DNA of 64,000 nucleotides. Origin: Trigonopsis variabilis. Its lineage: Eukaryota > Ascomycota > Trigonopsidomycetes > Trigonopsidales > Trigonopsidaceae. This document shows positions 12,550 to 26,058 of this stretch, one piece after another. Under the pieces are notes generated by a model, which was given only the letters and a program-made list of their open reading frames with translations, did not search any database and was not told the origin of the DNA. The stretch is from positions 186,001 to 250,000 of the forward strand of contig PPXM03000012.1 of the NCBI GenBank assembly GCA_003707065.3, written 5' to 3'. The position numbers and the translations under genes were made by a program. Within the stretch, counting starts at the first letter, position 1. Each line of letters opens with the position of its first letter.

Positions 12550-13446
12550 TCAGTCATCATCGTCTCTGGTATGATAAAACTCGACTTGCTTCTTTTCCTC
12601 TCGTTCCATGTGTTTTCTCATATATCTCCTTTCAAATCCATTGGATCTATCTATCCCATCCCAACGCCAACCAGGTTTGATGCCAAATCGATTTGGCGGG
12701 AAATAACCCTGGTACGTTCTCAAGCCAGTCGTTGATCTCTCAAGCCCTTCACTTTTGTTAGTCAAAAAGGCCGCGGCTGGGTCGTTCCATATCTCCCGCG
12801 ACTTAAGCTCTTCATTATATTGCTCATCATTAGCATATCGATTTATCGACATCGACTTAATATCCTCTAATCGCTTTTCCTGTTTCGTCTCCTCGACCTG
12901 TTGAACTAAACCTTTCTGTAGATTCTTTAATCTTTCCTCCTCCTGGGCCTTGCGCCGTTGCTCTTTTAACATTTCTGCTCGGGCCAAAGCAGCGTCAACT
13001 TTACGTCCAGAGGTATCTCGGTAAATGGTTTTATGGCGCTTCTCAGCTTCCTCAGCATCGTTCATAGACTCTTCTAACTCCCTCATTTCTGCTTCCCGTT
13101 GCTCTCGTATTGCTCGGGATACTTCTTCGCCGGTTTGTAGACCGACCTTAGCACCTGATTCCATTCGATCTTGATCATGCGTTTTTGTTCCGCTTTCCAA
13201 GGTCTTCTTTTTAACACCACTTAGACTTTTCCATGATTTTGGCTTCGTACTAACGACTCGATCAGAGTAAATGTTCACCGCATCGCTATCAAACTCTGAT
13301 TCTTCCTGTCCAGCTGAAGATGCCGCTGATTGCTCTGCAACAATGATATCATCGTCCACTATTTGTAAATCTTTTGACTTCTTCTGCTTCTTCTTTTTCT
13401 GGCCCGAGAGATAGTTTTTGGTCAGATATTCAGCCAGTGAACCCAT
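12550..13446 (-). CDS. BUD13: Pre-mRNA splicing factor Bud13 (RES complex)
   Basis: Scaffold of the RES (retention and splicing) complex with Snu17/Ist3 and Pml1, bound to the activated spliceosome and important for weak introns. A single 298-codon frame, the usual fungal length. It begins MGSLAEYLTKNYLSG followed by a Lys-rich run, the family N-terminus. The middle is a long charged helical region with REQREAEMRELEE and the TIYRDTSGRKVD block. The C-terminal core contains PPNRFGIKPGWRWDGIDRSN, the region that docks on Snu17 in the known complex, and ends acidic. No intron. Its presence is relevant given the very short, numerous introns around it, but I see nothing unusual in the protein itself. 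Confidence 0.93.
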   Translation of the reverse strand: MGSLAEYLTKNYLSGQKKKKQKKSKDLQIVDDDIIVAEQSAASSAGQEESEFDSDAVNIYSDRVVSTKPKSWKSLSGVKKKTLESGTKTHDQDRMESGAKVGLQTGEEVSRAIREQREAEMRELEESMNDAEEAEKRHKTIYRDTSGRKVDAALARAEMLKEQRRKAQEEERLKNLQKGLVQQVEETKQEKRLEDIKSMSINRYANDEQYNEELKSREIWNDPAAAFLTNKSEGLERSTTGLRTYQGYFPPNRFGIKPGWRWDGIDRSNGFERRYMRKHMEREEKKQVEFYHTRDDDD

Positions 13447-25406: not shown

Positions 25407-26058
25407 ATGGTTGAGAACACTAAACTTAACAAATTACAGCAATCGGTTCGAATTGGTAAGTTGGATGAGCGCATGTGGTACGATCGATGAAATAGGCTTC
25501 TGGTCATCAATTGCCGCGGTCGATCATGGAATCAAGCACGATGTGACGTACCACTGCTATGTGCTCTTATCGAGAAATGACTAACTGTTAGGGTATGTTG
25601 ATTAAGATTCTTTGCGGAACTGTGCTAATGAATTAAGTGGTAAAGGTACCCCTCGACGAAAGATCAAGAAGCCTCATTCGACCGGAGGAGGAGATGACAA
25701 GAAGGTTCAAGCTGTGCTCAAGAAATTGAACGTTCAACCTATTCCTCAAGTTGAAGAGGTCAATCTCTTCAAGGAGGATGGAAATATCATCCATTTTGCT
25801 CATCCTCGAGTGCAAGCCTCCGTTCCCTCTAATACTTTTGCCGTCTACGGTCATGAGGAAGAGAAAGATATGGCCGAATTATTGCCTGGCATTCTCACTC
25901 AATTGGGACCTGAATCACTGGCTGGATTGAAGAAACTGGCCGAACAATACCAAGCCATCCAGAGCCAACAGGCTGCTCAAGGAGAATCAAACGCTGAAGG
26001 CCAAGACGACAAGGACATCCCAGATCTCGTCCAAAGCTTTGAAAATAAGGTCGAGTAA
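25407..26058 (+). CDS. EGD1: Nascent polypeptide-associated complex subunit beta (NAC beta, Egd1)
   Basis: Ribosome-bound chaperone subunit that pairs with NAC alpha at the tunnel exit. The product (156 aa) reads [16 protein letters not shown], Gly-Gly, then [10 protein letters not shown], the basic ribosome-binding motif of the family. The NAC domain follows ([40 protein letters not shown]), then an acidic Gln-rich tail. Exon 1 is 25407-25455 and the last exon 25638-26058. To keep frame and the conserved Gly-Gly, two introns are needed, 25456-25591 (136 nt) and 25593-25637 (45 nt), leaving a one-base exon at 25592. Both introns have good donors (GTAAGT, GTATGT) and branch motifs (CTAAC, CTAAT). 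Joining exon 1 straight to the last exon shifts frame and stops soon after. Confidence 0.9.
25456..25591 (+). other. Long, foldable first intron of EGD1
   Basis: 136 nt, against 32-45 nt for nearly every other coding intron here. It contains a 7-bp inverted repeat GTGGTAC (25475-25481) and GTACCAC (25548-25554). A second pair, GATCGA (25482-25487) with TCGATC (25520-25525), lies directly inside the first, so the two stems could stack and shorten the effective donor-to-branch distance. There is a C-box-like TGGATGA at 25462 but no D box, so I do not call a snoRNA. Confidence 0.6.
25592..25592 (+). other. EGD1: Candidate single-nucleotide exon of EGD1
   Basis: The base G lies between an acceptor (CTAACTGTTAG, ending 25591) and a donor (GTATGT, from 25593). 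Exon 1 ends in phase 1 with G and the last exon begins T followed by GGT, so G+G+T makes the first of the two conserved glycines. Inferred from frame and conservation; no transcript data. Confidence 0.7.

Follow-up and report, generated by a model that had tools for sequence, protein, structure and literature searches.

Can the reading frame of a conserved fungal gene depend on an exon that is a single nucleotide long? The question is raised by EGD1, the gene for the beta subunit of the nascent polypeptide-associated complex (NAC), found at positions 25407-26058 on the plus strand of the window, that is, of the 64,000-nucleotide stretch analysed here (G000:C12:186001-250000, within an 11.35 Mb genome of 15 contigs). 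Exons of this size have precedents, and a mitochondrial single-nucleotide exon is reportedly present in Placozoa. We examined whether the sequence of EGD1 calls for such an exon, whether the same genome holds others, and what the EGD1 relatives in public databases look like at the same codon.

The split glycine codon of EGD1

The identity of the gene, proposed as EGD1/NAC beta in the initial annotation, was borne out. The open reading frame extends from an ATG at 25407 to a TAA at 26056-26058, and the joined exons encode 156 amino acids that carry both a NAC domain (Pfam PF01849, 7.7e-23, 80.6 bits) and the N-terminal RRK-type motif that together mark NAC beta (EGD1/BTF3). Human BTF3 aligns with residues 4-153 (7.5e-41), and 16 aligned relatives are 62-67% identical to EGD1. 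The motif GKGTPRRK is unchanged in all 17 aligned proteins, and human BTF3, which carries VRIGGKGT, reads VRIGGKGTARRK at the position of the joint.

The predicted first exon (25407-25455) encodes M1 to I16 plus the first base of Gly17, ending ATT G. It is followed by a putative 136-nt intron of phase 1 (intron 1, 25456-25591), which begins with GTAAGT and ends in CTAACTGTTAG at 25581-25591, a stretch that contains the branch site CTAAC and the 3' splice site TGTTAG. Then comes one G (25592), the middle base of the Gly17 codon (G/G/T), and directly after it a 45-nt intron of phase 2 (intron 2, 25593-25637), GTATGT...GCTAATGAATTAAG, with the branch site GCTAAT and the 3' splice site, ending AAG, at 25624-25637. 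The last exon (25638-26058) supplies the third base of Gly17, starts T GGT AAA GGT, contains the NAC domain and runs to the stop codon. One base thus lies between AG and GT (TTAG/G/GTATGT), and both introns are complete in their motifs. The genomic bases around this run of G are assembled as TTAGGGTATGT, and the predicted joined sequence is ATTGGTGGTAAAGG. We recovered every position that the initial annotation had given for this structure (the end of exon 1, GTAAGT at 25456, CTAACTGTTAG at 25581-25591, G at 25592, GTATGT at 25593 and the end of intron 2 at 25637).

To ask how many splicing patterns could encode the conserved protein, we enumerated every model across positions 25431-25670 that uses GT or GC as donor, AG as acceptor and no intron shorter than 20 nt. 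The exact conserved 13-residue motif was obtained from none of the 180 single-intron models and from one of the 3,065 two-intron models, namely intron, G, intron. It had been claimed that this arrangement alone restores the frame and the Gly-Gly pair; the claim holds for the frame together with the exact motif and is too strong for the frame by itself, since an intron from 25456 to 25645 also keeps it. Leaving out the G brings a stop after 46 codons and keeping intron 2 (which then reads IGYVD) a stop after 20, the early stops that had been anticipated in both cases; keeping intron 1 brings one after 27. The combination of a CTAAY branch site, 1-12 bases, AG, a lone G and a GT donor is rarer than that, since shuffling the 164-nt interior 20,000 times with dinucleotides preserved produced it only twice. 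The G at 25592 is flanked by complete introns and needed for both the frame and the conserved protein, two of the properties expected of a single-nucleotide exon. It is highly probable, judging from the genomic sequence, that EGD1 has a one-nucleotide coding exon, most likely constitutive, and that two ordinary U2-type introns are removed one after the other around it.

The single 190-nt intron from 25456 to 25645, which would use an alternative acceptor, TAAAG, ending at 25645, is the structure that competes most directly. It preserves the frame to the natural stop (predicted joined sequence ATTGGTACCCC), and one of the proteins among the matches listed, P0082, carries precisely this form in its annotation. 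Its product, however, would read VRIGTPRRK and lack G18-K19-G20, which are present in all 16 other aligned proteins and in human BTF3, and GGKG is retained in 64 of 64 transcript-like relatives among the matches listed. Such an intron would also bypass the AG at 25637, the nearest one downstream of the branch site, and leave both CTAACTGTTAG and GTATGT without explanation. We consider it improbable.

The initial annotation had pointed to stwintrons as a related route. These consist of two adjacent introns that are removed consecutively, and they are described from Pezizomycotina and Lipomyces (PMC5639578, PMC6616335), so that ascomycetes, Lipomyces included (PMC7138796), are a group in which one might be expected. 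In a stwintron a splice element of one intron is split by the other, which must leave first to build that site, whereas the two EGD1 introns are complete and lie 1 nt apart, with donor, branch site and acceptor of each contiguous before any splicing; read as a [D1,2] stwintron, the locus would yield the join ATTG+TGG, which is out of frame. With no splice site of either intron broken by its neighbour, the locus fits a true one-base exon and not a stwintron, a reading to which we assign very little probability. A recursive (zero-nucleotide) splice site is excluded, as the arrangement is AG/G/GT and the donor of intron 2 lies wholly downstream of the joint. An error in the assembly, or a pseudogene or unspliced relic, is just as hard to sustain. 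The lone G does lie in a run of three G, and long-read assemblies can miscount homopolymer runs. Yet the assembled bases give the exact conserved frame, which one G more or fewer would break, and elsewhere the gene is both undamaged and conserved. The only other NAC-domain match in the whole 11.35 Mb genome is one gene on contig C9, appearing as two pieces, which is probably NAC alpha. The one-base exon thus remains by far the favoured structure.

A second probable one-base exon and the genome-wide search

The genome contains a second predicted one-nucleotide exon. It belongs to a beta-tubulin gene read from the minus strand (L035, G000:C4:188724-188555), the predicted protein of which matches tubulin at 3.3e-112. 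Its first exon (C4:188724-188688) ends GGA CAA GCA G and is followed by a 40-nt intron, GTACGT..CTAATCACCAG, by a single G at G000:C4:188647, and by a 91-nt intron, GTGAGT..GCTAACGAACAG, after which the sequence continues with GAACCAGATTGGC. The layout GGACAAGCAG/GTACGT..CTAATCACCAG/G/GTGAGT..GCTAACGAACAG/GAACCAG encodes GQAGNQIG. The model predicts the joined sequence GCAGGGAACCAG, and the join yields MREIITIQCGQAGNQIGSSFWE, which aligns without a gap at the joint with beta-tubulin structures. In an enumeration like that for EGD1, IQCGQAGNQIG was given by 0 of 121 single-intron models and 1 of 1,118 two-intron models. The lone G occupies the middle position of a glycine codon in EGD1 and beta-tubulin alike.

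The other beta-tubulin gene of the genome (L067, in the region C4:671663-672277) is 71% identical to L035 over residues 56-260. It has a different set of introns, none of them at the codon that is split in L035. Two of these, read by eye as GTAAGT..CTAACGATTTTAG and GTAAGT..CTAACTTTTAG, match the EGD1 introns in style. An apparent 14-nt exon (GGTGCCGCTTTCTG) was also read by eye in this gene.

We searched the genome for further cases with patterns for a branch site, an acceptor, one base and a donor, using the reversed pattern as a control. The pattern CTAAYN{1,12}AGNGTRNGT had 22 matches (59 for the control), and all of them, in the window and at 21 other loci, were inspected. EGD1 and beta-tubulin alone join reading frames with a proper donor, branch site and acceptor; frame joins were also found at L020, L047 and L050 and set aside for their poor donors. 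The pattern CTAAYN{1,12}AGGGTRNG had 28 matches (49 for the control), 20 of which were inspected (the window, L028, L034, L035, L038, L044 and L052-L065). Here possible joins at L054, L055 and L062 were set aside because the motif lies within a long open frame on the same strand, and those at L053, L056 and L065 because of poor donors or branch sites. A looser one-base-exon pattern matched 182 times (360 for the control), and a pattern for exons of 1-8 nt showed no excess either (113 matches, 281 for the control). An intron pattern was counted as well (125 matches, 303 for the control); it presupposes the layout and hence was not used as evidence. With no genome-wide excess over the reversed pattern, the organism therefore does not use one-nucleotide exons at large.

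Introns as such may be few in this genome. A strict scan requiring long frames on both sides found 5 intron candidates in the 64 kb window, where intronless frames reach 1,739 amino acids. At 12550-13446 the window also encodes a member of the Bud13 family, which belongs to the RES splicing complex.

EGD1 relatives at the same codon

We collected the best 120 of 1,050 and the best 120 of 5,071 matches to EGD1, 153 different proteins in all. The 89 proteins named by NCBI/nr (P0269 by nr only) are gene models. The 64 others are drawn only from jgi, lgn, ena or merc, lie on contigs of 3.4 kb or less or lack contig data, and include two with a JGI product name; these proteins likely stem from transcripts. 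The comparison of junctions in related species that the initial annotation had proposed was thereby made at the protein level, where it shows a signature at the joint, with some misfits that we return to below. Among the matches listed, RIGGKG is present in 64 of 64 transcript-like proteins and in 30 of the 89 named models, the joint being altered in the remaining 59. Since these proteins are akin, the counts at the joint are not independent events, and with the best scores listed first, altered models may be under-counted.

The alterations are concentrated at the joint. In the 64 named proteins among the best 120 of 1,050 matches, 39 of the 40 insertions and deletions within residues 5-120 fall at residues 15-17; the other 56 proteins of the same 120 have two such events, at residues 11 and 25, and none at 15-17. 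MGM1 served as a control of limited use, since indels in loops prevail beyond its GTPase domain; across residues 125-325 there was one event in 87 proteins. Among the matches listed, the 59 altered EGD1 models comprise 27 with a one-residue insert, 8 with one glycine missing, 17 with longer inserts and 7 others. They come from what we take, by their species names, to be Pezizomycetes, Orbiliomycetes, Eurotiomycetes, Dothideomycetes, Leotiomycetes, Lecanoromycetes and Lipomycetes; of the eight Lipomycetes among the matches listed, two are altered (P0242, P0246) and six canonical.

The inserts themselves hint at how such models may be made. If a GTNNGT donor after ATTG were moved 4 bases, to its own terminal GT, the model would read ATT GGT NNx GGT, that is, IG-X-GKG, and the move would mend a frame short of one base. 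The residues inserted are I (9), T (8), D, E, H and K (2 each), N and A (1 each). Any residue can be written by this move, so that the informative part is the donors implied: GTATGT for Ile, GTACGT for Thr, GTAAGT for Lys and Asn, GTGAGT for Asp and Glu, GTCAGT for His and GTGCGT for Ala. Their third base is A in 20 of the 27 inserts (26% would be expected if all codons were used equally; p = 3e-7 on the assumption of independence) and otherwise G (5) or C (2), never T. A preference for A at this position is a property of fungal donors.

Other models are altered in different ways. Two Orbilia models, P0079 (VRI-GKG) and P0273 (VRIGFVHSN-GT), differ from each other at the joint, and a short-contig protein with RIGGKG matches both at 100% identity across the 105 residues that follow. 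Ophidiomyces ophidiicola likewise has two models, P0055 (VRIGIGKG) and P0075 (VRIGKG), which differ at the joint alone. P0095, from Penicillium ochrochloron, reads IG-YV-SFL-GKG, which is compatible with GTAYGT directly after a lone G, like the IGYVD obtained in the window when intron 2 is kept; the IG-FV of P0273 fits a GTTYGT donor only. In ten altered models GKG is directly preceded by S or R, as an acceptor AG/xGGT would yield. Taken together, the altered EGD1 joints in public models are probably a recurring annotation error, as far as protein sequences can tell. No confirmed EGD1 relative was found in the viral_contigs and genome_contigs DNA.

This pattern among the relatives suggests an EGD1 exon that is old and widely mis-annotated. 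Several models fit less well. Four from Teloschistales (P0113, P0118, P0120 and P0262) end CTAAC..AG/GN GGT, as one ordinary intron left in the model would, and their kin P0111 and P0091 have one-residue inserts, which the 4-base reading would not predict. AGGGT with a GTRNG donor does not fit into any of the four inserts of at least 29 residues (P0106, P0113, P0114 and P0118), and only one of 22 longer inserts (P0095) is compatible with AGGGTRNG; some of these models may be partly spliced. Because no more than that one insert is compatible, we hold the old-exon reading tentatively, and given the Teloschistales introns and the incompatible long inserts, great age is possible rather than probable. 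Possibly, then, the one-base exon was present in the ancestor of Pezizomycotina and Saccharomycotina and was kept for hundreds of millions of years. A large share of ascomycete NAC-beta models would in that case be wrong at this codon, and the fidelity of one-base splicing could act as a brake on NAC output.

Proposed splicing and relation to known cases

Introns 1 and 2 split the same glycine codon, in phases 1 and 2, and each would be defined across the intron; each has all signals of its own and can be recognised in this way. For the 45-nt intron 2, the genome offers comparably short introns in a 43-nt candidate 5' of the MGM1 frame and the 40-nt intron of beta-tubulin. The U1 site of intron 2, which reaches from the final bases of the exon to +6, covers the AG of intron 1. 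Two spliceosomes could hence not occupy the place at once, and removal would proceed by consecutive reactions. Either order would be workable, because each intron has a full set of splice sites. The isolated G would join one neighbour and then the other to give ATT G.G.T GGT AAA, or I-G-G-K; skipping it, or keeping either intron, would lead to the early stops described above. A long stem in intron 1 would bring its donor and branch site together; the stem is not exceptional (z = -1.1; 30 of 200 shuffles fold equally well). A scan of the window for RNA families found none that reaches its gathering score, the one snoRNA match being far under the cut-off. As to origin, we infer that an ancestral phase-1 intron may have stood before GT GGT, as in the four Teloschistales models, and that a second intron was then gained one base further on.

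Arabidopsis APC11, which the initial annotation rightly named as a precedent, has a constitutive one-nucleotide exon that is required for the frame (PMC4674806). Its old annotation absorbed 10 intron bases (1 mod 3), an error of the same kind as in the EGD1 models, but APC11 is a plant gene, its base is A and its exon was tested with minigenes (PMC4674806). The one-nucleotide microexons of VPS55 and APC11 are described as deeply conserved in land plants and absent from reference annotations (PMC8831610); these too differ from EGD1 in being from plants and in having proof from RNA-seq and RT-PCR (PMC8831610). The closest parallel is the one-base exon of Fusarium CYP621A, reported as the first in a fungal gene (PMC12940212, Nelson & Syed 2026). 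Like that of EGD1, it is a G between AG and GT (AGGGT), the middle base of a glycine codon in a conserved motif of a fungal protein, and its gene models are wrong at the joint (PMC12940212), as those of EGD1 relatives probably are. The CYP621A exon is confirmed by RNA reads (PMC12940212), whereas that of EGD1 is predicted from genomic sequence. CYP621A is, moreover, a Fusarium P450 with 20 orthologues, whereas the genes described here encode a core chaperone and a tubulin in a distant fungus, with hints of the same structure in other Ascomycota. In the open-licence literature we found no paper that pairs EGD1 or NAC with microexons, and the sole match for beta-tubulin and microexon concerns Cryptococcus. 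As a class, single-nucleotide exons are known; what looks new is the gene concerned, the presence of two cases in one genome and the possible depth within Ascomycota.

If the interpretation is correct, it would expose a systematic error in public NAC-beta models (59 of 89 named proteins among the matches listed). We suggest screening for models in which residues are added or dropped at a single constant joint and the added ones encode the first bases of a donor. Two cases in one genome, together with a possibly old case in a core gene, would make the question of the one-nucleotide exon testable in laboratory fungi.
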